A stretch of 64,000 nt of DNA, from the NCBI RefSeq assembly GCF_030730865.1, contig NZ_JAVALZ010000001.1, positions 1,116,001 through 1,180,000 on the forward strand. The letters are read 5' to 3'. Source of the DNA: Uliginosibacterium sp. 31-16. GTDB lineage: Bacteria > Pseudomonadota > Gammaproteobacteria > Burkholderiales > Rhodocyclaceae. The notes under the pieces were generated by a model. That model was not told where the DNA came from, made no database searches, and was given only the letters and a program-made list of their open reading frames with translations. This document shows, in pieces, positions 46,945-62,001 of this stretch (the stretch's first letter is position 1; every line of letters begins with the position of its first letter). The position numbers and the translations under genes are program-made.

Positions 46945-47404
46945 GAGGGCTCCGGAGAAATCTGGGGGAATGCTGCATTGTTTCAAGCTCATTGAGGCAG
47001 ACGCCTTACTTCACGTCAATTTCCGCGCTGCGTACCGGTTCAGGGTCTGTCCGGCTCCACGCAAGCAGTCCGGCATTCCTGTCGGTGCGCCGAGCGAGGA
47101 TCGCAAGAACATCCTCTGACCTTCCCTCCACAAAGGATGGCTGGAGAGACGCTCGATGACAAGCAAAAGACCGGAAAGAGCTTCTTACGGAGTTCTTACG
47201 AGCGTGCGCGAGACTTTAATGGTTCGGGGCAACTATCTGTTTGCATGTGCGAAAACCATCATGGCAGGCAGTCCGTCAGGGGGCGGCGGACCGAGCGGAA
47301 CGCCCCGAGCGCGGGAGCGTACACATTTCAGCTTCGCAATTGCGAAGCCGCCACGCAGGCGATCAAACAACAGGGAACAGGACCACAGTTCCACAGGGGA
47401 AATC
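46945..47404. other. 460-base gap between nnrS and the autotransporter gene
   Basis: I see no gene. It holds the divergent nnrS promoter, an 18-bp perfect palindrome at 47331-47348, and a purine-rich leader of the autotransporter gene with CACAGGGGAAA as ribosome-binding site. An in-frame extension upstream of the autotransporter start is open but shows no protein-like pattern. Confidence 0.6.
47331..47348. promoter_or_regulatory. 18-bp perfect palindrome before the autotransporter
   Basis: GCTTCGCAATTGCGAAGC, 57 bases before the start codon. It could be a dimeric repressor site or an mRNA hairpin without a loop; no T-run follows, so it is not a terminator. Confidence 0.5.
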
Positions 47405-49867
47405 ATGAAAAAACAGTCGTGCAATAGTCAAGCTGGGCAATTCAGTCTGAAGCTCATTCCGGTCGCCGTGGCGCTGGCGCTGGCGCCGCAAGCATTTGCC
47501 CAGCAACAGTGGACGCCGACCATCGAGCCCATTGCCAAGCACAGCAACAAACGCAGCTCCGGCAGCATCAATGCGGCCATTCCCTTGCAACAGGATACAA
47601 GCAGCCTGCTGTTTGCCGATATCAAGGGCAGTATCAGCCACCCTCGCGACCATCAGGATGGCGAGAGCGATGGCAATGAATTCAATCTTGGTCTGGCTTA
47701 TCGCAAGCTCGTCGCTGAAGGTCAGTGGGCCGTTGGTGGTTACGGCGCCTGGGACCGTCGTCGCAGTTTTCTTGGCAATTATTTCAATCAGATCACGCTC
47801 GGTGTTGAGGCCCGCAACAGCTGGATGGACTGGCGCCTGAATTACTACCAGCCGATTACCGGCAAGAAGGAAATCGGTCTGGGTGATCTGAATCACTTCT
47901 CCGGCAATAACATCTACCGGAATGGTGTGTACGAAGAGGCCTTGCGTGGCGCCGATCTGGAGTTAGGTTTTGATCTGCCGCTGTTCCAGAGCCTCGAAAC
48001 CCGTATCTATACCGCCGCTTACACCTTCAAAGGTGACGTTTCCGGCCCGGCGGCCAATGGCTGGCGCGGACGCCTGGAGGCGCGCCTGAACAAGCGCTTC
48101 ACCCTGGGCCTGGGTACTCAGCATGACAAGAAATCCGGCACCACCAATTTTCTCAGCCTCAGCTACGCATTCGGTGGTGGTTATTCGGGCGACGGCAAGC
48201 GGTCACTTCGCGAGCGCATGATCGAGCCTTGGGTTCGTGATGACGACATTGTTCTGGCGGCGGCTGAATCCGGCAGAGAGAAGGATGCAAAGCAGACCTC
48301 GGATCAGGCCATCCACATTGACAACTCGAAGGCCACCAACGGTGACGGCAGCTACGAGAACCCGTACAACAGCGTTGCCAATTGTGAAGCTGCCAAGTGC
48401 TTTGCGGCGAACGGTGACGGTAGTGGCAGCTACAACATGATCCGCCTGTGGCAGGGCAATTCGGCAATGGGCATGATGGTTGGGCCGGGTAGCCTGCAGA
48501 CTGCGGTCTATGCAGGCCCGGACGCTGCCTATACCGGCATGACCCTGCTGGACGGGCAGACCCTGTGGGGCGAGGGCTACAACATCTATACCAACGTGGC
48601 TACGCCGGCCAAGGCGCCCGTGATTAGTGGCTGGAATGGCAATGGCAATGGTGTGACCCTGGCCAGCAATGGCAGCCGCGGCAACACTGTGGCGGGCGTA
48701 AAGATCAATGCGCCGGTCAATGGCATCTACGGCTCGAATACCTGGGGTATGGTCAACATCATCGGCAACCAGATTGATTCTGTCCGTCCCGGCATCAATC
48801 TGAGCTCCGATACTGGCGGCTATGCGGGCTATGCGGGCATAGCTGCCGTGCCTGCGGTTTCTGCAGAAACCCCGGTGAGTCGCAGCCAGATCATCAACAT
48901 CCGTGACAATACGATCACCACAAAATATGGTCATGGCATCCGTGTCGTCGGTAACTCCACCAGAACCAGCGCCAGCCTGAGCCAGAGTATTACGATCGAG
49001 GGTAATACGGTCGGGGCCGGTCTTTCCGGCAGCAGCAAAAAGGCGGGCCTCACCGGCAAGTCAATACTGAGTCCGGCTGGCAATGGAGGGTATGGCGGTA
49101 ACGCCGTGAGTATCTCGACCAGCGCATACTATGGCGGTCCGATCAGCCAAAGTGTGGTGATCCGCAACAATACCCTGAGTGCTGTGGCCGGTAATGGCAT
49201 CAATCTGACCAATTACGGTGACAGCACCGCGACACAGACCATCAGTATTACCGGCAATACCATCACTGTCCGCGACAATAGCACTGTCACCAGTCTGGAT
49301 TCGGGTCCTGGCGCGAGCCGTGGCGTCGGGATTTCCCTGAACAACTTTGCCTATGATGCGGATGTCACCCAGACCGCCCAGATCAGTGGCAATATCATCG
49401 ACGCCAGCAAGGTGGCTATTTACGCGACCAACGAATCAGCTTACGGTGGCAAGGCCATGCAGAGCCTCACGATCCGCGACAACTCTCTGACGGCAGGCCT
49501 GGGTGGCATCGCGCTGGGCAATGGCAGTTCCCGCAAACGTGCTGTCGCTACAACGGCTGATGTGGTCAAGGCCATGCCGGCCAGCGCCCCTCCTATCGCC
49601 TCGACCAGCGAAGTCCAGACGGCGGAGATCTCTGGCAATACCCTCCGCGGGGGCTCCGTTGGCGTGGCGGTCTATAACATGGCGGCAACGCCTGGTGCCC
49701 AAAGTGTGACCATCAGCAATCTGACCTACACCACCCCGGTCAGCAATGCTGTTGTGGCCATGCGTTGCACCCAGGCCAGCGGTTCCCAGACGGTAACGCT
49801 GGACAGCGGTGTGACGCTCAACGGCAATCCTAAAACCGGTACTGTTGCCAACGGCTGCGTGAATTAA
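47405..49867 (+). CDS. Inverse autotransporter (intimin-like barrel) with beta-helix passenger
   Basis: An 820-residue outer-membrane adhesin-like protein. Signal peptide about 1-34 (ending PQAFAQ). The intimin-type beta-barrel domain spans about 60-270, with NEFNLGLAYRKL, GQWAVGGYGAWDRRRS, LEARLNKRFTLGLGTQHDK and the closing block LRERMIEPWVRDDDIVL. The passenger (about 300-820) is a right-handed beta-helix with repeats such as SQIINIRDNTITTKYGHGI, QSVVIRNNTLSAVAGNGI and QTISITGNTITVRDNS. Intimin family passengers are normally Ig-like; a pure beta-helix is unusual. The C-terminus has a Cys pair. A terminator follows. Confidence 0.87.
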   Translation: MKKQSCNSQAGQFSLKLIPVAVALALAPQAFAQQQWTPTIEPIAKHSNKRSSGSINAAIPLQQDTSSLLFADIKGSISHPRDHQDGESDGNEFNLGLAYRKLVAEGQWAVGGYGAWDRRRSFLGNYFNQITLGVEARNSWMDWRLNYYQPITGKKEIGLGDLNHFSGNNIYRNGVYEEALRGADLELGFDLPLFQSLETRIYTAAYTFKGDVSGPAANGWRGRLEARLNKRFTLGLGTQHDKKSGTTNFLSLSYAFGGGYSGDGKRSLRERMIEPWVRDDDIVLAAAESGREKDAKQTSDQAIHIDNSKATNGDGSYENPYNSVANCEAAKCFAANGDGSGSYNMIRLWQGNSAMGMMVGPGSLQTAVYAGPDAAYTGMTLLDGQTLWGEGYNIYTNVATPAKAPVISGWNGNGNGVTLASNGSRGNTVAGVKINAPVNGIYGSNTWGMVNIIGNQIDSVRPGINLSSDTGGYAGYAGIAAVPAVSAETPVSRSQIINIRDNTITTKYGHGIRVVGNSTRTSASLSQSITIEGNTVGAGLSGSSKKAGLTGKSILSPAGNGGYGGNAVSISTSAYYGGPISQSVVIRNNTLSAVAGNGINLTNYGDSTATQTISITGNTITVRDNSTVTSLDSGPGASRGVGISLNNFAYDADVTQTAQISGNIIDASKVAIYATNESAYGGKAMQSLTIRDNSLTAGLGGIALGNGSSRKRAVATTADVVKAMPASAPPIASTSEVQTAEISGNTLRGGSVGVAVYNMAATPGAQSVTISNLTYTTPVSNAVVAMRCTQASGSQTVTLDSGVTLNGNPKTGTVANGCVN

Positions 49868-52390: not shown

Positions 52391-52888
52391 ATGAACCCCC
52401 TGATCCGCCCTGTTGTCGCCCTGAGCATCCTGCTGGCCCTGCCGCTGGCTCAGGCTGCCGATTTTGACGATTACGCCCGCGTGCTCAGTGTCGAACCACG
52501 CATGCAGCAGTTCAACGAACCGCGTGAGGAATGCCGCACCGAATATCGGCGCATTGAAAGCCGCGAGGGTGGGCCGAATGCCGGCACCCTGATCGGCGGC
52601 GTGGCCGGTGCCATCCTCGGTCATCAGGTTGGCCGTGGTGGTGGCCGCGATGTTGCAACTGTGGCCGGCGCAATCACCGGGGCGGTCGTGGGCAGCGAGC
52701 TGGGCAGCCGCGAGCGCACTGCATCCGAGCGCCCGGAACGTGTCTGCCGCGTGGTGGATAACTGGGTGAGCCGCCCGGATGGCTATGACGTGCGTTACGA
52801 GTATCAGGGCCGCGAATACAGCACCGTGCTGTCCCGCGATCCGGGCCGGCGCATGCGTCTGCACGTGAGTCTGACGCCCGACGAGTGA
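52391..52888 (+). CDS. Glycine-zipper 2TM-domain envelope protein
   Basis: A 165-residue exported protein: signal peptide ending PLAQAA (about residue 23), a polar stretch with EECRTEYRR, then the glycine-zipper hairpin TLIGGVAGAILGHQVGRGGGRDVATVAGAITGAVVGSELG (two Gly-rich helices at about 66-105, quoted in outline), and a C-terminal beta region with CRVVDNWVSRPDGYDVRYEYQGREY. It resembles SlyB/YmgG-like outer-membrane associated proteins. Two cysteines may form a disulfide. AGGAG upstream. Confidence 0.85.
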   Translation: MNPLIRPVVALSILLALPLAQAADFDDYARVLSVEPRMQQFNEPREECRTEYRRIESREGGPNAGTLIGGVAGAILGHQVGRGGGRDVATVAGAITGAVVGSELGSRERTASERPERVCRVVDNWVSRPDGYDVRYEYQGREYSTVLSRDPGRRMRLHVSLTPDE

Positions 52889-52954: not shown

Positions 52955-53260
52955 TCAGGCTTTCTTGACCCAGGCCGAGCACCAGCCCTTGCTGGCGACC
53001 AGACGGTTGCCCAGCGCCGCACAGGTGCCTTCGGCGGGCGTCTTGGTCTTGTAGAAGTTGCAGTTCGCGCAATTGCTGCCTTTGACGAACTGTTTGAACT
53101 TGGCGGTATCCACCTTGGCGGCGTCTTCCTTGTAGCCGAGTGCGGTGGCGGTCGGGTCGTTCTCGGGCACCTTGGCCTGCGCAGCGGCTTCGCGCATGAC
53201 ACCCAGGCCCAGAGCCAGTGCGGGGGCGGCAATCAGAATGGAACGGCGGCGGCTATCCAT
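52955..53260 (-). CDS. High-potential iron-sulfur protein (HiPIP)
   Basis: A 101-residue periplasmic electron carrier with one 4Fe-4S cluster. A twin-arginine signal (RRRSILIAAPALALGLG) precedes the mature protein. The ligands Cys64, Cys67, Cys80 and Cys94 sit in NCANCNFY, GTC and GWCSAW, the HiPIP pattern. It usually shuttles electrons between bc1 and a reaction centre or oxidase. It is the last gene of the minus-strand run with the flavoprotein and SpeE-like genes, 64 bases from the flavoprotein gene. Confidence 0.95.
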   Translation of the reverse strand: MDSRRRSILIAAPALALGLGVMREAAAQAKVPENDPTATALGYKEDAAKVDTAKFKQFVKGSNCANCNFYKTKTPAEGTCAALGNRLVASKGWCSAWVKKA

Positions 53261-53324
53261 GAGTTTCTCCTGTGGGGTTTGTGGTTTGACAGCCCCTGAA
53301 GCATCGGCTGTGCAGCGGTGCGCG

Positions 53325-54926
53325 TCAAGTCAGGATCTTGCCCGCCGCCTTTTCGCCCCACCAGGCGGCCTCTTCAAACACCGACAGACCGGACAGGTCG
53401 GCATGGGCAAACAGGATGCGCCGGTCTGCCGCGCACAAGGCGGCAATGCCCGGCCGGGCGAGGAATCCTGGTGCGGGCGTGGCCATGGCATGGCCGCGCA
53501 CGGTGATGGCGACCTGCTGTACCTGTCGCGCAAAGCCGTTGCCATAGGCGGCGTGCAGATCGCTGCTGGCGAGTGCCAGCAGTTCGGCCGGCGGGGCATT
53601 CACCAGCCAGGCCCGCAGCGCCTGCGGCGGCAGGTGGTCAAGCGCACGATAAGCCGTGAATACGGTCTGTGCCGGCCGGGCCTGACGAATCCACTGGTGG
53701 GTGGCGACCACCCAGCCCAAGCCCTCACCGCCATATACCACGTTGTCCCAGGCCAGCGGCTGGTGCGGATCGGCCTCTTGCGGGAAACGGTTCAGCAGGA
53801 AATTGCTGACCAGCCAGCTCGCGCTGGCGGGCAGATCGCGCGCCTTGTCGAAGCCGAAGTCGGCAAGATTGGCCACCGCATGCGCGGCCACATGCAGCGG
53901 CATCGCCACGATTACCCGTTTGGCGTGCAGGGTAAAAGCTTCATTCCTGGCCGCGTCGAAGCACAGCACGTCCACGCCCTGCTTGTGCTCGCTGACCTGC
54001 AGGGCCATGCCGTCGATCCAGCGTGCAGCTCCGATGCGCGAGCGCAAGCCCTGCGCCAGGGGTTGCAGGCCATCCGGCCAGGTCAGCACGGCGCCGTCTT
54101 CCGCATTCGCGGCATGCCCACCGCGGCTGGCAAAGTAATGCAGACCGGCCCAGGCCGACACCTGTTCGATGCCCGCGCCGTAATCATCGCGGCAACAGTA
54201 ATCGGCATACCAGCGCAGCGGCGGCGCCGTGAAACCCTGACGGTTCAGCCAGGCCACAAAGGTTTCGGTGGCCAGCGCGGTGAACACCGGGTCTGCCGAA
54301 GACAGTGCCAGCGGAATGACGAAGGCACGCCGGCCATCCTGGCCACGTGCCTCGCGCAGGCGGGCGATCTCGCCGAAGAAGCGCCGGATCTGCGCCTGAT
54401 CGTCGGCACCCAGGCCGTGTTGCGGCACGATGCCGTCCTGCCACGCGGCGTTGATGAACAGGCGCTCGTCCGGGGCGTGTACCAGCGCGCGTTCGGCGTA
54501 CTCGGGTCGCAAGGCAAAGGGGTCACCGTGCAGCACACCGAATTCCGCCAGCATCTCGCGCACATGCGTCGATTCCATCGATGGCAGCGGCAGATAATGC
54601 GCGCCGGTGGGACACGGGACGCCTCCCAGCACGCTGCCGGCGGTGTTGCCCAGCGGCTCCGGCCCGCCGAGCAGGCAGAAATCGCGGTAGCCCGCCTGGG
54701 CCAGCCGCCAGCCTGCAAACAGCCCGGCCACGCCGCTGCCCAGAATCGCCACGTCAACGGAGCGTTGCCGCGTCGGATTGGGCGTCGGCAGGCGGTCGCG
54801 CAGGCGGTGGCCCAACTCCATGCCCGGCATGTGCACGCTCACCGGAGGTGCCTGCCAGGGCAGGCGCTCGCTGCAGCCGGCAAGGCTGGTCGCAGCAGCG
54901 AGTTTCAGGAAGTCACGGCGCTTCAT
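53325..54926 (-). CDS. Exported FAD-dependent amine-oxidase-like protein
   Basis: A 533-residue flavoprotein. The N-terminus KRRDFLKLAAATSLAGC combines a twin-arginine motif with a lipobox, so it is probably a Tat-exported lipoprotein. The FAD dinucleotide motif VDVAILGSGVAGLFAGWRLAQAG lies at about 57-79. The C-terminal FAD segment RRILFAHADLSGLSVFEEAAWWGEKAA is present. The overall fold is that of flavin amine oxidases, so polyamines from the neighbouring aminopropyltransferase are a natural substrate guess. It may pass electrons to the adjacent HiPIP. ATG at 54926; upstream in-frame Met lies in repeat DNA. Confidence 0.85.
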   Translation of the reverse strand: MKRRDFLKLAAATSLAGCSERLPWQAPPVSVHMPGMELGHRLRDRLPTPNPTRQRSVDVAILGSGVAGLFAGWRLAQAGYRDFCLLGGPEPLGNTAGSVLGGVPCPTGAHYLPLPSMESTHVREMLAEFGVLHGDPFALRPEYAERALVHAPDERLFINAAWQDGIVPQHGLGADDQAQIRRFFGEIARLREARGQDGRRAFVIPLALSSADPVFTALATETFVAWLNRQGFTAPPLRWYADYCCRDDYGAGIEQVSAWAGLHYFASRGGHAANAEDGAVLTWPDGLQPLAQGLRSRIGAARWIDGMALQVSEHKQGVDVLCFDAARNEAFTLHAKRVIVAMPLHVAAHAVANLADFGFDKARDLPASASWLVSNFLLNRFPQEADPHQPLAWDNVVYGGEGLGWVVATHQWIRQARPAQTVFTAYRALDHLPPQALRAWLVNAPPAELLALASSDLHAAYGNGFARQVQQVAITVRGHAMATPAPGFLARPGIAALCAADRRILFAHADLSGLSVFEEAAWWGEKAAGKILT

Positions 54927-54960
54927 CGCTCGGGAGTTGGAAGTCGTGAGTCGGGAGTGG

Positions 54961-55078
54961 GATGCCCGGAGAGCCGCGCGCACAGCGCTTCTTCGAGAAG
55001 GCATGCCAGAGACGAAACAGGAGCGCGGTTCTTCAGGCGGATAGCCTGAAAACCCTTGCCGGAAGCGGGTTTCCGGTC
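54961..55078. repeat. Dispersed intergenic repeat, copy 14
   Basis: GATGCCCGGAGAGCCGCGCG at left, GAGAAGGCATGCC and GCGCGGTTCTTCAGGC inside, AAACCCTTGCCGGAAGCGGG at right. Confidence 0.7.
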
Positions 55079-55101
55079 GCTGGCCGGCCGACTCCCCCGC
55101 C

Positions 55102-56637
55102 TCACCGGATCACCCGATGCCAGTCTTCCTCGAAGTAGCGCACCAGGGCCTGGCTGTTGAGGCGATTGGGCTCGACTTCGATGCGCTGCATGTCCGCCGG
55201 GAAGCGGAACATGTCGCGCGTGGCGGTGCCGTCCAGCCAGCGCATCGGCAGGGCGTAATGCGTGGGCGGCTGGTAGCGGCCGGTGCGATCCGCAATCACG
55301 AAGCCCCATTCGCCGAAGGAGGGCACGTAAGCGTGATACGGATAGGTCTTGAAACCTGCCGCTTCCAGCGTGGTGACCACACACCAGTAGGCATGCGGGG
55401 CGAAATAGGGCGAGGTGGATTGCACCACCATCAGGCCGTTTTCGGCCAGATGCTCGCGCACCAGCCGGTAGAACGGCTCGGAGTACAGTTTGCCAAGGCC
55501 GTAACTGTTCGGGTCCGGCAAGTCGATGATGATTGCATCGAAGGCCGTGCCCGCCGTTTCCAGCCACTGGCCGGCGTCGGCATTGATGATGTGCACCCGG
55601 TGGTCCTTGAAGGCATTCCGGTTCAGTGCCGTCAGCGGCGCGGCGCTGGAGAACAGGCGGGTCATCGCCGGGTCCAGATCGACCAGGGTGACTTCTTCCA
55701 CGCTCGGGTATTTCAGGATCTCGCGGATCGCCAGCCCGTCGCCGCCACCCAGCACCAGCACGCGTTTCACGCCCGGCAGTGCGGCCAGTACCGGATGCAC
55801 CAGCGCCTCGTGATAGCGATGCTCGTCGCGGCTCGAGAATTGCAGGTTGCCATTGATGTACAGGCGCAGGTCGTCCTTCCACTTGGTCACCACCAGGCGC
55901 TGATAAGGCGTGGTCTCGGCGTGCACAATCTCGTCGCCGAAGACACCGCGTTCGCTCCATTGCGTGATGCGTTCGGATGCCGCAAAACCACCGACCAGCA
56001 GCACCAGCACGATGCTTGCGCGCAGGGTCAGTGCGCGGCGCTGGCGGATCTCGCTGCGAAAGACACGAATGGCCAGCAAAGCCACGCCGGCATTGGCGAT
56101 GCCGAACAGGAACGCCGTGCGCGCCAGCCCCAGATGCGGCGCCAGCACGATGGGAAAGAGCAGCGACACGAACAGCGCGCCCAGGTAATCGAAGGTCAGC
56201 ACCCGGCTGACGATCTCGCTGAACCCGGTCTTGCGCTCATTCAGCAGGCGCATCACCAGCGGGATCTCCATGCCCACCAGCACGCCCAGCGCGAACACCA
56301 GTGCATACAGCACGCTGCGGAAGGGGCCGGCCATCCACGCGAAAATCACGAACAGCACGGTGGCCGAAGCGCCACCGATCAGGCCGACGAGCAGCTCGAT
56401 GTCGATGAAGCGGGCCAGCAGGTCTTCATCCTTCACGTACTTCGACAGATGCGAACCTACTCCCATGGCAAACAGATAGCAGCCGATGATCGACGAGAAC
56501 TGCAGCACCGAGTCGCCGAGCAGATAGCTTGCCAGCGCGCCGGCCACCAGTTCGTAGGCCAGGCCGCAGGAGGCGACGATGAAAACCGAGAGGATCAGCA
56601 GGCGGTCTGGCCGCCGGGTGCTCGAAGGGGATGACAT
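55102..56637 (-). CDS. Membrane-anchored spermidine-synthase-like protein
   Basis: A 511-residue fusion. Residues 1-215 hold about seven membrane segments (LLILSVFIVASCGLAYELVAGALASYLLGDS opens the first). Residues 225-511 are an aminopropyltransferase domain with QRLVVTKWKDDLRLYINGNLQFSSRDEHRYHEALVHP (outline), the SAM-type loop VLVLGGGDGLAIREIL and DLPDPNSYGLGKLYSEPFY. The catalytic Asp region IIIDLPDP is kept. The acceptor amine is unknown; membrane anchoring is not typical of housekeeping SpeE. It is divergent from the small membrane gene at 56697 with only about 60 bases between start codons. Confidence 0.9.
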   Translation of the reverse strand: MSSPSSTRRPDRLLILSVFIVASCGLAYELVAGALASYLLGDSVLQFSSIIGCYLFAMGVGSHLSKYVKDEDLLARFIDIELLVGLIGGASATVLFVIFAWMAGPFRSVLYALVFALGVLVGMEIPLVMRLLNERKTGFSEIVSRVLTFDYLGALFVSLLFPIVLAPHLGLARTAFLFGIANAGVALLAIRVFRSEIRQRRALTLRASIVLVLLVGGFAASERITQWSERGVFGDEIVHAETTPYQRLVVTKWKDDLRLYINGNLQFSSRDEHRYHEALVHPVLAALPGVKRVLVLGGGDGLAIREILKYPSVEEVTLVDLDPAMTRLFSSAAPLTALNRNAFKDHRVHIINADAGQWLETAGTAFDAIIIDLPDPNSYGLGKLYSEPFYRLVREHLAENGLMVVQSTSPYFAPHAYWCVVTTLEAAGFKTYPYHAYVPSFGEWGFVIADRTGRYQPPTHYALPMRWLDGTATRDMFRFPADMQRIEVEPNRLNSQALVRYFEEDWHRVIR

Positions 56638-56696
56638 GCTGGCATCGTGAATGCGGAGCGTGGCATTATGCAGGCAAGCCGCAATCCACGGGTCTA

Positions 56697-56987
56697 TTGA
56701 AATTGCTCAAACTCATCAAATACGCGCTTTTGCTTGCTGCGATCCTGCTTTGCTATAAAGGCTTGGAGATTTACGGCACAATCAGCAGCGGCAAGATCAT
56801 GCTCAATGAATGTCATGCTGATACAAAGCTGACCGAAGCGCGCAAGCGCGGAGGCTCCAAGGAAGACGTGGAGCATCTTTACCGAGAAGTTTTTACGTGC
56901 GTGAAGGAAAGGCAGAATTTCATTCAAGCTTATTTCTTCAAGGTCACTGACAAAATGATTCATCCAGAATTTTCCGAAAAGCGATAA
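56697..56987 (+). CDS. Small single-TM protein of the SpeE/DUF350 cluster
   Basis: A 96-residue protein if translation begins at the TTG (56697): KLLKLIKYALLLAAILLCYKGLEIYG is a membrane segment, followed by a charged helical tail with two cysteines (LNECHADTKL, VFTCVKERQNF). An ATG at 56631 would extend it into the speE-like gene and give a less protein-like N-terminus. It is 19 bases before the DUF350 gene. No family recognised. Confidence 0.65.
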   Translation: MKLLKLIKYALLLAAILLCYKGLEIYGTISSGKIMLNECHADTKLTEARKRGGSKEDVEHLYREVFTCVKERQNFIQAYFFKVTDKMIHPEFSEKR

Positions 56988-57006
56988 GACTCACAGGAGC
57001 CCCGGC

Positions 57007-57399
57007 ATGAGCATTGACATGATTTATGGTTACGTTCTCCACCTGCTGACCGGCCTGGCGCTGGTTGGCGTCTTCGTCGTCATTTACCTGTGGCTCACCC
57101 CGTTCGACGAGATTGCGCTCATCTGCAAAGGCTGTGTGGCACCGGCGCTGTCTTTCGGCGGCACCCTGATCGGCTTCTCCTGGACAGTCGCTTCCGGCAT
57201 CCTGCATGTGCCGGGCTATCTGGCCTTTCTCGCCTGGGCCGCCGCCGCCATGGTCGTGCAGCTTGTCGCCTTCCTGATTCTGGAACGCACCTTGCCCAAC
57301 ATGAAAGAAGCACTTGAATCCAATAACGTGGCGATGGGCGCCCTGCTCGGTTCGATCTCGCTGGCGATTGGCCTGATCAATGGTGCGTGTCTGTCGTAG
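57007..57399 (+). CDS. DUF350 membrane protein
   Basis: A 130-residue protein with about four membrane segments and little else: LLTGLALVGVFVVIYLWL, CVAPALSFGGTLIGFSWTVAS, LAFLAWAAAAMVVQLVAFLIL and VAMGALLGSISLAIGLINGAC. The FGG..IGF and GA..GS..L.IGL..GA patterns are those of DUF350 (YjfL). CAGGAG precedes the ATG. DUF350 genes often keep company with SPFH, SpeE and DUF4178 genes, as here. Function unknown; perhaps a channel-like membrane component. Confidence 0.9.
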   Translation: MSIDMIYGYVLHLLTGLALVGVFVVIYLWLTPFDEIALICKGCVAPALSFGGTLIGFSWTVASGILHVPGYLAFLAWAAAAMVVQLVAFLILERTLPNMKEALESNNVAMGALLGSISLAIGLINGACLS

Positions 57400-57443
57400 A
57401 AACCGCAGAAATGGTTCTGGCGGCTTCGCTGTTCCGACCTGAA

Positions 57444-57899
57444 ATGAGCCCTCTGAGCATTCGCAAGCTCGCCGAAGCCGATCTTGCCGCCCTGCTCGCC
57501 CTCTATCGCGAGCTGCATCCGGGCGATGCGCCTTTGCCGGAAGCCGCGCAGGTGGCCGATGTCTGGCGCACGATTCTCGCCGATCCGCGCCAGCATTGCC
57601 TCGGCGGATTCCTGGATGAAAGGCTGGTGTGCAGCTGCACGCTGGTGATCATTCCGAACCTTACACGCGGCGGTCGGCCGTACGCCCTGATCGAAAACGT
57701 CGTGACCACCGCCGCACATCGCGGCCGGGGCTACGGACGGGCAATCCTCGCGCACGCCTGCAACATCGCATGGCAACATGACTGCTACAAAGTCATGCTG
57801 CAGACCGGTCGCAAGGATGACGCGACCCTCGCTTTCTACGAATCAGCCGGCTTCGACCGGACCACCAAACAGGCGTTTTACGCCGCTGCTCCGACCTGA
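57444..57899 (+). CDS. GNAT-family N-acetyltransferase
   Basis: A 151-residue acetyltransferase with a clear motif A, VVTTAAHRGRGYGRAILAHA, and the C-terminal CYKVMLQTGRKDDATLAFYESAGFDR. The start may instead be an ATG at 57411 or the GTG at 57387 that overlaps the DUF350 stop. It sits between DUF350 and the SPFH gene in one transcription unit (11 bases before the latter). Polyamine acetylation is thinkable in this setting, but nothing in the sequence proves it. Confidence 0.88.
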   Translation: MSPLSIRKLAEADLAALLALYRELHPGDAPLPEAAQVADVWRTILADPRQHCLGGFLDERLVCSCTLVIIPNLTRGGRPYALIENVVTTAAHRGRGYGRAILAHACNIAWQHDCYKVMLQTGRKDDATLAFYESAGFDRTTKQAFYAAAPT

Positions 57900-57910
57900 A
57901 AGGAACCATC

Positions 57911-58933
57911 ATGGGCCTGACCGATTTCATCAAGAAACAGTTTATCGACATCCTGCAGTGGAACGAGGATCAGGACGGCGTGCTCGCCTGGCGCTTCCCG
58001 ATGCAGGACATGGAAATCCAGAACGGCGCCAGCCTCACCGTGCGCGAATCGCAGATGGCCGTGTTCGTCAATGAAGGCAAGGTCGCCGACGTGTTCGGCC
58101 CCGGCATGTACAAGCTCACCACCCAGACCCTGCCGGTACTCACCTACCTGAAGAACTGGGACAAGCTTTTCGAGTCGCCCTTCAAGAGCGACCTCTACTT
58201 CTTCTCTACGCGCCTGCAGATCGGCCGCAAGTGGGGCACCCAGCAGCCGGTGACGATCCGCGACAAGGATTTCGGCATGGTGCGTCTGCGCGCCTTCGGC
58301 ATCTATTCCTACAAGATGGCCGATCCGAAGAAGTTCTTCGCTGAACTCTCCGGCACGCGGGAAACCTATACCGTCGACGACGTCGAGCAGCAACTGCGCA
58401 ACCTTGTCGTCGCCAACATGACCGGCTTGTTCGGCTCCAGCGAGCTGCCCTTCCTCGACATGGCCGCCAACCAGATGCTGCTCTCCGAAAAGCTCAAGGA
58501 AAGCATGCTGCCGGTCTTCGACAAGTACGGTCTCGCGCTCGACAACTTCGCGGTCGAAAACGTCTCCCTGCCCGAAGAGTTGCAGAAGGCCATCGACACC
58601 CGGATCTCGATGGGCATGATGGGCGACATGGGCAAGTTCACCCAGTATCAGATGGCCAACGCCATCCCGCTCGCCGCGCAGAACGAAGGCGGGCTGGCCG
58701 GCATGGGTGCCGGCGTCGGCGTGGGTCTCGGCATGGGCCAGATGATGGCTGGCACCATGGCGCAAACCATGGCTGGCGTGGCCCAGCCTGCTGCTGCAGC
58801 CCCCGCCGCTCCGGCAGCCGAAGACCCCACTGCCAAGCTCGCCAAGCTGAAGGTCATGCTTGATCAGAACCTGATTACGCAGGCCGATTACGACACGGCG
58901 AAGGCTGAAGTGCTGAAGAAGATGCTGGGCTGA
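57911..58933 (+). CDS. SPFH-domain protein with C-terminal SHOCT motif
   Basis: A 340-residue protein of the YdjI-like virion-core SPFH class. Residues about 1-265 are SPFH/band-7 (GLTDFIKKQFIDILQWNEDQDGVLAWRFP start, GVYKL-like PGMYKLTTQTLPVLTYLKNW). A Gly/Met/Ala-rich linker follows, then SHOCT at about 306-339 (DPTAKLAKLKVMLDQNLITQADYDTAKAEVLKKML, outline). There is no membrane segment; it probably assembles on membranes as a scaffold. SPFH-SHOCT proteins are common partners of DUF350/DUF4178 and PspA-type envelope systems. Confidence 0.9.
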   Translation: MGLTDFIKKQFIDILQWNEDQDGVLAWRFPMQDMEIQNGASLTVRESQMAVFVNEGKVADVFGPGMYKLTTQTLPVLTYLKNWDKLFESPFKSDLYFFSTRLQIGRKWGTQQPVTIRDKDFGMVRLRAFGIYSYKMADPKKFFAELSGTRETYTVDDVEQQLRNLVVANMTGLFGSSELPFLDMAANQMLLSEKLKESMLPVFDKYGLALDNFAVENVSLPEELQKAIDTRISMGMMGDMGKFTQYQMANAIPLAAQNEGGLAGMGAGVGVGLGMGQMMAGTMAQTMAGVAQPAAAAPAAPAAEDPTAKLAKLKVMLDQNLITQADYDTAKAEVLKKMLG

Positions 58934-58942
58934 AACCGGATG

Positions 58943-59041
58943 GTTCCCATGCTCCGCGTGGGAACCTGAATTGCGACGCTCTGCGTCGAAGGGGGCGCTG
59001 GAGCGTCCCGGCAGCAGTCCCACACAGAGCATGGGAACAAT
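58943..59041. repeat. MITE-like palindromic element (GGTTCCCATGCTC type)
   Basis: Terminal arms GGTTCCCATGCTC and GAGCATGGGAAC face each other across about 75 bases, with inner blocks GCGACGCTCTGCGTCG and GCGCTGGAGCGTCCCGG. I recall this GGTTCCCA...TGGGAAC element as a widespread, non-autonomous repeat in many proteobacteria. It sits exactly before the odd glycosyltransferase gene. A further hairpin, CCCACGCGCTTGCGTGGG, follows at 59121-59138. Confidence 0.7.
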
Positions 59042-59185
59042 CAAACTTAATTTTTCGGGGCGGACAAGTTAGAGGGGCGCGGCTCGAATACATCAAGGCC
59101 CGGATGAATCAGGAACGTACCCACGCGCTTGCGTGGGGGTGGTCAAAATCTCATTACTCGATACAACGCTTGGCAGGAAACGTGA

Positions 59186-60181
59186 ATGAAAAAAACGGCA
59201 GTATTCACCATGGTGTACAACGAATCATTGTTTCTGCCGATCTGGTTGCAGCACTATGGGAGTATCTTTGGCCTTGAAAACTGTTTCGTGCTTGATGATG
59301 GCTCCAACGATGGTTCCACAGGAGACCGTCGCATACGCAATCTCATCAGCAAGAAACGCAGTGAATTTGACGAAGATGATCGCGCCCGTCTGATCAGCAG
59401 CCTGCACACCGAGCTGCTTGCGGATTACGAGCAGGTCATTTACACCGACACCGACGAACTGATCGCGGTCGATCCCGCGCTAGGCGTTGATCTTGCTGCG
59501 TACCTCGCTACGCAGGACGCCACCCATTTCACGCCTGTCGGTTTTGATGTGATCCACAGGGCGGCTACAGAGCCGGATCTGGTCCTGACCGGCAAGCTGT
59601 TCGAGCAGCGCAGCTACTTGCGTTTCAGAAAAGACTATTGCAAGACTCTCATCTCGCGAATTCCCTTGCGCTGGTCCGTAGGCTTTCACTACGCCAGTCT
59701 GCCGCCGAATTATGATCGCAACCTCTATCTGTTTCATTTGCGGGCCGTTGATCGCGAGTCTTCACGCCAACGCATCGCAGTCTTGAATCAGGTCCGGTTT
59801 TCTGAGAACTCGCGGAGAAAGTCGCATGGCGCACACTTTCTGTGGAGTGAGTCAGACTATCTGGATCACCTGTACGGAACTTCCGACGCGGTATTTGCGG
59901 AGGCCCTGCAGACCGACCCGATGGAGTTGTTTAGCGAGGAAAATCCGTGTGACTCTGCGCAACTGGTCAGGATTCCGCAGCGTTTCGAGCAGTCTATCCA
60001 GTTGTCGCCCCTGCAGACAGAGTCGGCCGGCAGTGATACAAGACCAAGGGAAGCACACACGGCGCTGTTTGAACGCGCCCTACGCCGGGCAATAGCAAGC
60101 GCGCCAGAGCGCAAGCGCAATGATCCTTGCCCTTGTGGTTCTGGCAAGAAATTCAAACATTGTCACGGGGCTCTGGCGTAA
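59186..60181 (+). CDS. Family 2-like glycosyltransferase fused to SEC-C zinc motif
   Basis: A 331-residue protein. The glycosyltransferase part starts KTAVFTMVYNESLFLPIWLQHY, with FVLDDGSNDGS (34-44) and the metal-binding DTD at 88-90, like the glyco_tranf_2_4 group. The last 21 residues are a SEC-C zinc-binding motif (DPCPCGSGKKFKHCHG, Cys ligands CxC...HC). SEC-C on a glycosyltransferase is unusual. The gene is more AT-rich than its neighbours and lies between a MITE-like element and the DUF4178 gene, so it looks inserted into the cluster. GGCAGGAAA upstream of the ATG. Confidence 0.82.
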   Translation: MKKTAVFTMVYNESLFLPIWLQHYGSIFGLENCFVLDDGSNDGSTGDRRIRNLISKKRSEFDEDDRARLISSLHTELLADYEQVIYTDTDELIAVDPALGVDLAAYLATQDATHFTPVGFDVIHRAATEPDLVLTGKLFEQRSYLRFRKDYCKTLISRIPLRWSVGFHYASLPPNYDRNLYLFHLRAVDRESSRQRIAVLNQVRFSENSRRKSHGAHFLWSESDYLDHLYGTSDAVFAEALQTDPMELFSEENPCDSAQLVRIPQRFEQSIQLSPLQTESAGSDTRPREAHTALFERALRRAIASAPERKRNDPCPCGSGKKFKHCHGALA

Positions 60182-60220
60182 AACTCCTGATCGAAGGCCG
60201 GACTTGAATCAGTCCGAATT

Positions 60221-60236
60221 AGCCTGAAAGGCTTTT
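60221..60236 (+). terminator. Small terminator after the glycosyltransferase gene
   Basis: AGCCT, loop GAA, AGGCT, TTT. Another perfect hairpin (GCCGGC-AAA-GCCGGC) lies at 60270-60284 in the leader of the DUF4178 gene. Confidence 0.45.
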
Positions 60237-60346
60237 CGCGGTCTGGACGTTGCATTTAAGAAACATTGTGCCGGCAAAGCCGGCGGAAGTTCGAAATACA
60301 AACCATCCGGTGCAATTCGCTACGCTCATTGACACCCTACGAAACC

Positions 60347-61834
60347 ATGTACAAAACCGCCTGCCCCGCCTGCGGGGCGCAAGTCGAATTCAGGTCCGCC
60401 GGCTCGGTGATGGCGGTGTGTGCGTATTGCCGCAGCACGCTGCTGCGCGATGCGGACAGCGTGCGCAACATCGGTCGCATGAGCGAGGTGATCGAGGATC
60501 ACACACGCATCCAGATCACCACCTCCGGTCAGTACGAGGGGAAGAACTTCGGGGTGGTCGGGCGCATCCAGCTCAAGTACGAGGATGGTTTCTGGAACGA
60601 GTGGTATGTGCTGTTCGATGACGGCACGGCGGGCTGGCTCTCCGATGGCTCCGGCCAGTATGCGCTGACCTTGCCGAAGGGAACTCCGAACAAGGCGCCG
60701 ACCTTCAGGCAGATCCGCCCCGGTGCGTCGATCCCGTGGGATGGCGCACGTTTCACCGCGACCGACGTGCGCACCGCGACCTGTGTGGCTGGCGAGGGCG
60801 AGTTGCCCTTTCAGGTTGGCAGCGGCTACGTGGTGCGCGTCGCAGACTTCCGCAGCGATGATCGCTTCCTGACCCTCGATTATTCCGACGGCGACACGCC
60901 GCAGGTCTTCCTCGGCACGGCGACCACGCTGGAGGATCTGAAGTGCCAGTTGCTGCGCAGTGAAGATCAGGTGAAGGACACGGCCGGCAAGCTCAAGGGC
61001 AAGACGAAGGCACTCGAATGCCCGAACTGCGGCAGCGGTATCGACAGCATTCCCGGCAAGGCCGAGCATCTGGTCTGCCCGAGCTGTCATGCCGAGGTGG
61101 GGCTGGAGGGTGACAAGGCCGAGGTGTTGCAGAAGCATGCCGGGCTGCAGACGCATGTCACCAGCCTGCAGCTGGGCGACACCGCCAGCCTGGAGGGCGT
61201 GAAGTGGCAGCTCATCGGGCTGATGGTGTGCCGGGAGTTCGGCTCGGATGAATCTTCGGTGTGGACCGAATATCTGCTGTTCAACGCGAGCAAGGGTTTC
61301 CTGTGGCTGGTGGAAACCGACGAGAAGTGGACCCGTACCGCCGTACTCAACAAGCTGCCGGCCGATGCGGGCCAGAGCGTGCGCTTCGGCGGCAAGACCT
61401 ACACCAAACAGTGGGATTACGGCAGTGAAGTGATCTACGCCGCCGGGGCTTTCAACTGGCGTGTGAAGATCGGCGACAAGACACAGATCACGGATTTTCA
61501 GGGGCCGGACGGCACCCTGTGCAAGGAGCGCACCGCGGAGGAAATCACCTGGTCGCTGGGTACCGACATGGATTCCGCGCTGCTGGCCAAGGCCTTCGGC
61601 AAGGCGCCGGAGCTGCTCGCCAAATCAGTCAGCAGCGCGCCGTCGTCGCTGACCTTGTTTGCCAAGATCGCGTCGGGCATCCTGATCTTTCTGAATATCA
61701 GCAACATTTTCCGGGGCAGTTTTGGGGCCATCGTCTTCACCGGACTGGCCCTGCTGCTGCTGTGGCTGCCGGTGTGGATGGGCGGCGGAACGGGTACCGA
61801 CAGTTCGGACGGCGACGAAGGGGATGAGGAATGA
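60347..61834 (+). CDS. Double DUF4178 protein with zinc ribbons and TM segment
   Basis: A 495-residue protein. A zinc ribbon opens it (Cys6, Cys9, Cys25, Cys28: ACPACG...VCAYCRS). The first DUF4178 module is about 45-195 (IQITTSGQYEGKNFGVVGRIQLKY, WNEWYVLFDDGTAGWLSD). A second ribbon (LECPNCGSG...LVCPSCHAE) lies at about 222-250, then a second DUF4178 module (about 270-420). Two membrane segments near 440-480 precede an acidic tail (SDGDEGDEE). Function unknown. Its stop overlaps the ATG of the next small gene. Confidence 0.9.
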   Translation: MYKTACPACGAQVEFRSAGSVMAVCAYCRSTLLRDADSVRNIGRMSEVIEDHTRIQITTSGQYEGKNFGVVGRIQLKYEDGFWNEWYVLFDDGTAGWLSDGSGQYALTLPKGTPNKAPTFRQIRPGASIPWDGARFTATDVRTATCVAGEGELPFQVGSGYVVRVADFRSDDRFLTLDYSDGDTPQVFLGTATTLEDLKCQLLRSEDQVKDTAGKLKGKTKALECPNCGSGIDSIPGKAEHLVCPSCHAEVGLEGDKAEVLQKHAGLQTHVTSLQLGDTASLEGVKWQLIGLMVCREFGSDESSVWTEYLLFNASKGFLWLVETDEKWTRTAVLNKLPADAGQSVRFGGKTYTKQWDYGSEVIYAAGAFNWRVKIGDKTQITDFQGPDGTLCKERTAEEITWSLGTDMDSALLAKAFGKAPELLAKSVSSAPSSLTLFAKIASGILIFLNISNIFRGSFGAIVFTGLALLLLWLPVWMGGGTGTDSSDGDEGDEE

Positions 61835-62001
61835 ACCGCCTTATGTACATCGTGTACGCCATCGTTGTCACCACCGTTACCACCGGCATCAACAGTGGCA
61901 TCAGCTCCAGCTCGGGCGGCGGCAGCTACCGCTCCTGGGGGAATTCCTCGAGCTATTCGAGCGGCTCCGGCAGTAGCTGGAGCGGTGGCGGGCACAAATA
62001 A
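61831..62001 (+). CDS. Small Ser/Gly-rich membrane protein
   Basis: A 56-residue protein. NRLMYIVYAIVVTTVTTGI is a membrane segment; the rest is Ser/Gly/Tyr/Trp-rich (SSSSGGGSYRSWGNSSSYSS, ending SWSGGGHK). The ATG overlaps the DUF4178 stop (ATGA), so translation is coupled. Similar small Ser/Gly tails accompany DUF4178 operons as far as I recall. It is the last gene of the cluster. Confidence 0.75.
   Translation: MNRLMYIVYAIVVTTVTTGINSGISSSSGGGSYRSWGNSSSYSSGSGSSWSGGGHK

Follow-up and report, generated by a model that had tools for sequence, protein, structure and literature searches.

The cluster analysed here raises the question of what an aminopropyltransferase fused to a membrane domain uses as its acceptor. 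It lies at positions 52955-62001 of the window, that is, of the whole 64,000-nucleotide stretch of Uliginosibacterium sp. 31-16 DNA that was analysed. Operons combining this enzyme (7TM-SpeE) with DUF350, DUF4178, AdoMet decarboxylase (AdoMetDC) and a polyamine oxidase, and a Band-7/SHOCT variant of them, are already named in the sections of Ravi et al. (2024; PMC11237479) consulted here, which propose roles in membrane dynamics and in the aminopropylation of other substrates. A previous sequence-only reading of the locus was fair in stating that such clusters have no established function, but the cluster is not undescribed.

Gene content and conservation of the cluster

Genes were identified from open reading frame coordinates and from Pfam and NCBIfam profile matches. 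The minus strand encodes a HiPIP (52955-53260; PF01355, E = 1e-21, 77.5 bits against a cut-off of 22) with a Tat-like signal, a flavoprotein with an amine oxidase fold (53325-54926) and 7TM-SpeE (55102-56637). The plus strand encodes a small TM ORF (56703-56987), a DUF350 membrane protein (57007-57399; PF03994, E = 3.6e-29), a GNAT acetyltransferase (57411-57899; PF00583, E = 4.7e-15), an SPFH protein (Band_7_1; 57911-58933; PF13421, E = 1.2e-79) with a C-terminal SHOCT-like segment that scores below the cut-off, a DUF4178 protein that combines two zinc-ribbon/DUF4178 modules with two TM segments at its C-terminal end (60347-61834; PF13785, E = 1.5e-33, in two stretches) and a 56-amino-acid Ser/Gly TM peptide (61831-62001) that belongs to no Pfam family and whose gene shares 4 bases with that of DUF4178. 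Every gene named in the sequence-only reading was found in place, but that list had omitted a plus-strand gene with Glyco_tranf_2_4 and SEC-C matches (59186-60181; PF13704 and PF02810) between SPFH and DUF4178. The two transcription units, described as starting about 60 bases apart, do so at about 60-66 bases if the small ORF begins at TTG 56697 or TTG 56703; a further candidate start is ATG 56631. The DUF350 and GNAT genes overlap by 13 bases with an alternative GTG start at 57387 and by 0 with the start at 57411.

We compared this neighbourhood over 81 loci (the window and 80 relatives, some cut by contig ends). SPFH was present in 79 loci, the FAD flavoprotein in 78, DUF4178 in 76 and DUF350 in 74. 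This co-occurrence with 7TM-SpeE is far beyond chance, and 7TM-SpeE belongs to a single conserved cluster together with the flavoprotein, DUF350, SPFH-SHOCT and DUF4178. The comparison, proposed beforehand as a test of whether the flavoprotein and SpeE genes keep company with DUF350 and DUF4178, upheld both associations. By contrast, HiPIP and GNAT, which had been counted as general parts of the system, each occur in only 4 of the 81 loci, ruling them out as core components. The small TM ORF, similarly counted, has no counterpart at the loci of the 80 relatives and scores weakly as coding sequence; it was rejected as a part and may not be a conserved gene. The Glyco_tranf_2_4/SEC-C gene, also confined to the window among the 81 loci, was rejected as well; GC content falls at this gene, which is probably an insertion outside the system. 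None of the ten cluster proteins matched PspA in a Pfam search, which excludes membership of the PSP (PspA/CesT) system.

The window matches the Band-7/SHOCT operon variant in holding 7TM-SpeE, DUF350, DUF4178, Band-7 with SHOCT and an oxidase together, with SHOCT below the Pfam cut-off and the polyamine oxidase recognized by fold only. The variant is further marked by a 2TM segment between Band-7 and SHOCT; over 79 relatives, the best 19-residue hydropathy had a median of 1.39 and a maximum of 1.71. AdoMet decarboxylase, a trait of that variant, is absent from the window's operon: the sole SpeD gene of this genome lies on another contig (C6), whereas SpeD is cluster-linked in most of the 80 relatives (at least 66). 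Loss of function as the meaning of this unlinking was ruled out, because all 10 genomes searched contain one SpeD. The window genome also encodes a soluble SpeE homologue, which could draw on the same SpeD.

A small tail peptide ending in His-Lys

The 56-amino-acid peptide consists of a short basic N terminus, one TM helix and a Ser/Gly-rich tail ending in His-Lys (codons at 61993-61998). On comparative evidence, it appears to be the most informative part of the cluster. Of 76 loci, 74 have the tail next to DUF4178 or as a fusion with it; the other two are cut or partly masked. All 74 tails (71 separate genes and 3 DUF4178 fusions) end in -His-Lys. This ending persists in diverse sequences, with 59 distinct versions of the last 20 residues among 70 tails, and both terminal codons vary synonymously. 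Among 1,059 other proteins of the same HK-tail loci, 49 end in K and none in HK, a base rate for these loci rather than for the low-GC gamma genomes. Where the peptide and DUF4178 genes are displaced in Uliginosibacterium, about 16 kb from SpeE, the HK end is retained; at locus L004, the tail was located beside the displaced DUF4178 gene.

Across Pseudomonadota, a linked Lys-ended tail (-HK, -GK, -IK or -VK) accompanies 7TM-SpeE in 42 of 45 loci, although the tail families are not all independent of one another. All 42 tails contain a hydrophobic stretch suited to an anchor or signal; the three tail-less loci comprise an orphan SpeE, a PspA-type cluster and a contig end. Fusions of tail and DUF4178 occur in several lineages, and the predicted TM segments before fused tails are not always odd in number (two in L127, L128 and L043). 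The HK ending tracks the flavoprotein, being found in 12 of 14 loci with it and in 0 of 31 others; Gemmatirosa has the flavoprotein, yet its tail ends in GK. In all three haloarchaeal clusters, which like the Gemmatimonadota loci were taken from plasmids, 7TM-SpeE is paired with a Tat lipoprotein without a terminal Lys. Twelve further loci came from viral contigs, 11 of them matching the SpeE domain in part only, and none was used.

The main rival to the reading proposed below, in which the terminal lysine is aminopropylated, is an anchor to the cell wall, as in Lpp (Braun lipoprotein). L,D-transpeptidases would cross-link the lysine to peptidoglycan and so tether the inner-membrane complex, and SpeE would act elsewhere. 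The tail resembles Lpp in being flexible, membrane-anchored and, on its predicted membrane side, probably exported to the periplasm, and haloarchaea, which are not known to have such a wall, lack the terminal Lys in their three loci. However, a wall anchor would not explain why 42 of 45 7TM-SpeE loci pair such a tail with an aminopropyltransferase, and the Gly-Gly tail end found in sister ligase clusters has no side-chain amine. We consider this explanation unlikely.

The membrane enzyme and a proposed reaction

7TM-SpeE matches NF002956 (PRK03612-type membrane aminopropyltransferase) over residues 7-509, with 705.2 bits against 472. Its AlphaFold model bears out the earlier seven-TM assignment, with seven membrane-length helices up to about residue 233, followed by an aminopropyltransferase domain at about 235-490. 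Residues Y275, D300, D322, D354, D372, D375 and Q406, which we presume, partly from alignments, to be catalytic, are invariant in 45 of 45 7TM-SpeE proteins. The domain is closest to the Thermus triamine/agmatine aminopropyltransferase (1uir) and thermospermine synthase, which take long acceptors; the fold and presumed catalytic residues are common to all, but the structures of those two enzymes are of soluble proteins that lack a TM domain, and both act on free amines. A search with PADLOC for anti-phage systems gave a mad2 match on the SpeE domain (7e-18) and weak cross-matches to SEC-C and the zinc ribbon. By prediction, the catalytic domain faces the periplasm. In favour of this placement, K+R counts per loop are 2.67, 3.73 and 4.24 in loops 2, 4 and 6, and 0.11, 0.89 and 1.44 in loops 1, 3 and 5; against it, just 22 of 45 proteins carry a net positive charge at the N terminus, and 14 of 45 do so in loop 2. 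A periplasmic catalytic domain would require decarboxylated AdoMet outside the cytosol, and we know of no exporter for this compound.

The flavoprotein (PF01593 and PF13450; 22.6 bits against a cut-off of 19.8 for PF01593) opens with a Tat-type sequence and carries an LAGC lipobox, and structure comparison supported its amine oxidase fold. This fold is closest to putrescine oxidase, tied with many others; identity to the listed chains, including putrescine oxidase and spermidine dehydrogenase SpdH, is 12-20%, and the flavoprotein differs from these two in its Tat signal and, in part of its family, a lipobox. All four HiPIP copies have four Cys, each is the only HiPIP of its genome and its gene adjoins the FAD gene; none was found in five other cluster genomes searched. 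The earlier suggestion that the HiPIP serves as electron outlet is plausible because of this sole presence beside the FAD gene, and the HiPIP is likely to be the electron acceptor of the flavoprotein, but in this clade only.

These enzyme likenesses also bear on the view of the sequence-only reading, close to that of Ravi et al. (2024), in which SpeE makes a free aminopropylated amine that the flavoprotein oxidises and GNAT acetylates; the tail would then be a sensor or scaffold. Both the long-acceptor relatives of the SpeE domain and the putrescine oxidase-like fold favour it. Against it, GNAT and HiPIP are rare, the membrane SpeE fusion reportedly does not replace spermidine synthase (Li 2019), and the variation of the last tail residue with enzyme type is left unexplained; we regard a small-molecule system as improbable. 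Fusion of the enzyme to a membrane domain would also suit aminopropylation of a lipid head group, such as that of phosphatidylethanolamine, but this too leaves the tail pattern unexplained and seems to us very improbable indeed.

The conserved HK tail, which the sequence-only reading had listed last, points instead to the tail as substrate, and the comparisons suggest that 7TM-SpeE modifies a Lys-ended protein tail rather than producing free polyamine. We give roughly even chances to an envelope system that would cap a membrane-anchored Ser/Gly-rich tail with an aminopropyl (polyamine-like) group. In the mechanism that we infer, SpeD, here encoded outside the cluster, would produce decarboxylated AdoMet, which 7TM-SpeE would take up, possibly through its own TM domain. 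The periplasm-side catalytic domain would then move the aminopropyl group onto the C-terminal lysine of the HK peptide, and the Tat-exported flavin amine oxidase would oxidise or trim the modified end, with the HiPIP removing its electrons in the window's clade. Positioning of the tail and the enzyme would fall to DUF4178, DUF350 and SPFH-SHOCT.

Relation to known polyamine systems

The window shares its core genes and membrane-stress context with the operons in the consulted sections of Ravi et al. (2024; PMC11237479) and differs from them in that its SpeD is unlinked and a HiPIP and a GNAT have been added. The small tail peptide goes unmentioned in these sections, and the word 'lysine' is absent from the main text. 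The literature covered by our search yielded no report of a C-terminal lysine on these tails. Within these sources, the 56-amino-acid peptide is a new element of the described cluster, and its short tail, conserved and with lysine fixed as the last residue, is a concrete candidate acceptor for membrane SpeE fusions.

The E. coli clusters yjfIJKLMC and ygiBC, in which YjfC and YgiC accompany DUF1190 lipoproteins, likewise place a Ser/Gly-rich envelope tail beside a polyamine enzyme, and the yjf cluster also has DUF350 and PspA neighbours. YjfM and YgiB end in GG, and RefSeq names their neighbouring enzymes peptide--spermidine ligases. A Gly-Gly end was found in 26 of 29 DUF1190 tails (locus L209 excluded), and GSP_synth in 38 of 39 DUF1190 genomes. 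Among 299 genomes, in a count that ignores phylogeny, 59 contained GSP_synth, 31 contained 7TM-SpeE and none contained both. Enzyme chemistry appears to fit the tail terminus, ligase with Gly-Gly and aminopropyltransferase with Lys. We tentatively propose, at somewhat less than even chances, that C-terminal lysine aminopropylation by a periplasm-facing SpeE relative is a bacterial post-translational modification interchangeable with the joining of spermidine to Gly-Gly, both capping envelope proteins with polyamine. If so, the idea of polyamine-capped envelope tails would unite the E. coli peptide-spermidine ligase clusters with those of the DUF350/DUF4178/PspA kind, the E. coli type combining an ATP-grasp ligase with a Gly-Gly end and the window type an aminopropyltransferase with a Lys end.

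Gene content of the cluster and SpeD supply

With the window SpeE as query, we scanned the genome collection, retained the best 80 of 404 relatives, used a simple codon model to predict genes, and grouped all resulting proteins with those of the window by clustering (81 loci). SpeE was found in 81/81 loci, SPFH in 79, the flavin amine oxidase-fold protein (FAD; window 53325-54926, minus strand) in 78, DUF4178 in 76 and DUF350 in 74, and SpeD was linked in at least 66 (67 if an unlinked copy in L001 is counted); these counts are lower limits, because contig ends cut several loci. The commonest order was SpeD, short peptide, DUF4178, SPFH and DUF350, followed by SpeE and FAD in divergent orientation. 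The sequence-only reading had proposed a membrane-polyamine cluster here, and all genes that it named are present and the named families matched, but it overlooked a gene inside the rightward unit (59186-60181, plus strand) whose product is glycosyltransferase-2-like and carries a SEC-C motif. Among the 81 loci, this gene and the small TM ORF occur in the window only, and HiPIP and GNAT in four (the window, L002, L003 and L004). Among the best 80 relatives, those nearest to the window SpeE came from a proteobacterial MAG (91%), Rhodocyclaceae UBA1310 (81%) and Uliginosibacterium (80%). The cluster is real and already known in outline; Ravi 2024 (PMC11237479) describes its core operons and, with Li 2019 as reference, suggests aminopropylation of other substrates.

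SpeD is absent from the window cluster, and the single SpeD of this genome (3.9 Mb, 99.75% complete) sits on another contig. Nine more genomes, picked where predicted genes showed no linked SpeD, each gave exactly one SpeD match, which in three (L043, L050 and L069) lay within the cluster after all. The unlinked SpeD proteins of L002, L003, L004, L008 and L081 were nearest to that of the window (76 to 47% identity). Because the window genome also encodes a soluble SpeE homologue, SpeD there need not serve the membrane cluster alone.

Several other features were observed in the window. The catalytic region of the seven-TM SpeE (7TM-SpeE; 55102-56637, minus strand) matched PADLOC mad2 of the MADS defence system at 7e-18; this profile of 492 positions may itself be a related fusion. 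Just past the HiPIP end lies a protein with, by eye, a glycine-zipper-like segment (52391-52888), a relative of which was absent from all 80 loci compared. A long ORF (47156-49867) resembles, again by eye, an inverse autotransporter with repeats.

A His-Lys-ended tail beside DUF4178

A short Ser/Gly-rich ORF downstream of DUF4178, sought without using its last residues as a criterion, was present at 70/76 DUF4178 loci, and all 70 ended in His-Lys (HK), the terminus of the window tail (61831-62001, plus strand). Inspection added a separate HK-ended peptide in L008, and in L059, L066 and L068 the tail is fused to the DUF4178 C terminus, again with an HK end, giving 74/76 loci; the other two are a locus truncated where its contig stops and a partly masked one. 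The terminal codons vary (CAC or CAT for His, AAG or AAA for Lys), the 70 tails comprise 68 different peptides whose last 20 residues form 59 different sequences, and among 1,059 other proteins of the same loci 49 end in Lys and none in HK. Lys or Arg immediately precedes the TM core in 67/70 tails. For L004, whose locus lacks DUF4178, a genome search placed DUF4178 approximately 16 kb away on the same contig, where an HK-ended peptide adjoins it. Herbaspirillum huttiense carries, besides the usual DUF4178 protein and separate peptide, a second, shorter DUF4178 protein (L043:5263-6264) whose own C terminus is an HK-ended Ser/Gly tail.

Terminal lysine across Pseudomonadota and plasmids

Among 398 genomes sampled evenly across Pseudomonadota, 44 carried 7TM-SpeE at a total of 45 loci, all of which we inspected, the window included. 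A linked protein or a fused DUF4178 end terminated in Lys at 42/45 loci; for the non-beta classes, where neighbouring genes were read by eye, this count is less blind than the rule-based 76-locus survey. By our own labels, the terminal pairs were HK (14), GK (23), IK (2) and VK (3). All 42 tails contain a 15-residue stretch with hydropathy of at least 1.6, and 13 have a lipobox-like motif within the first 110 residues. One tail (genome G207) lies approximately 10 kb from SpeE. No tail was seen at three loci, namely an orphan SpeE (G052), a PspA-type cluster (G057) and a contig end (G164), and a genome search found DUF4178 absent from all three genomes. DUF4178 occurred in 19/299 genomes, all of which also have 7TM-SpeE.

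On plasmids, Lys-ended tails were found at six of nine loci (Novosphingobium, Alteromonas, Ensifer, Tritonibacter, Burkholderia and Gemmatirosa); the terminal Lys was absent at all three haloarchaeal loci, which have an internal Gly-rich stretch instead. At these three (L133, L136 and L137), 7TM-SpeE lies beside a Tat lipoprotein with an internal Lys/Gly-rich stretch and a non-Lys terminus; the following gene in L136 is annotated DUF2617. The Novosphingobium tail (L130:8530-8676) ends in PSHK with hardly any Ser/Gly run, so the Lys is kept while tail composition is not. No Pfam match above cut-off was obtained for any of ten tail proteins tested.

Comparison with peptide–spermidine ligase clusters

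E. coli K-12 yjfIJKLMC and ygiBC encode YjfC and YgiC, named peptide--spermidine ligases in RefSeq, a naming that goes back to Pederick 2023. Unlike the Lys-ended tails beside 7TM-SpeE, their neighbours YjfM and YgiB have Gly-Gly termini. DUF1190 gave 41 matches in 39/299 genomes, with a Gly-Gly terminus in 26/29 loci (30 examined, one wrong ORF excluded). GSP_synth was found in 59/299 genomes, including 38 of the 39 with DUF1190, and 7TM-SpeE in 31/299 (matched by handle). Compared by eye, the two lists of genomes shared no member; the chance of zero overlap is 7e-4, a value that ignores phylogeny and assumes that the 398-genome draw contains the 299. Thus, the last residue of the tail tracks the enzyme type, being Gly with the carboxylate-activating ligase and Lys with the amine-alkylating transferase. 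This match to enzyme chemistry is the main argument from which we infer that the tail end is the enzyme's substrate. The conserved Lys-ended tail and its match to enzyme type appear to be undescribed in the literature searched, and they make the question of what 7TM-SpeE modifies directly testable.
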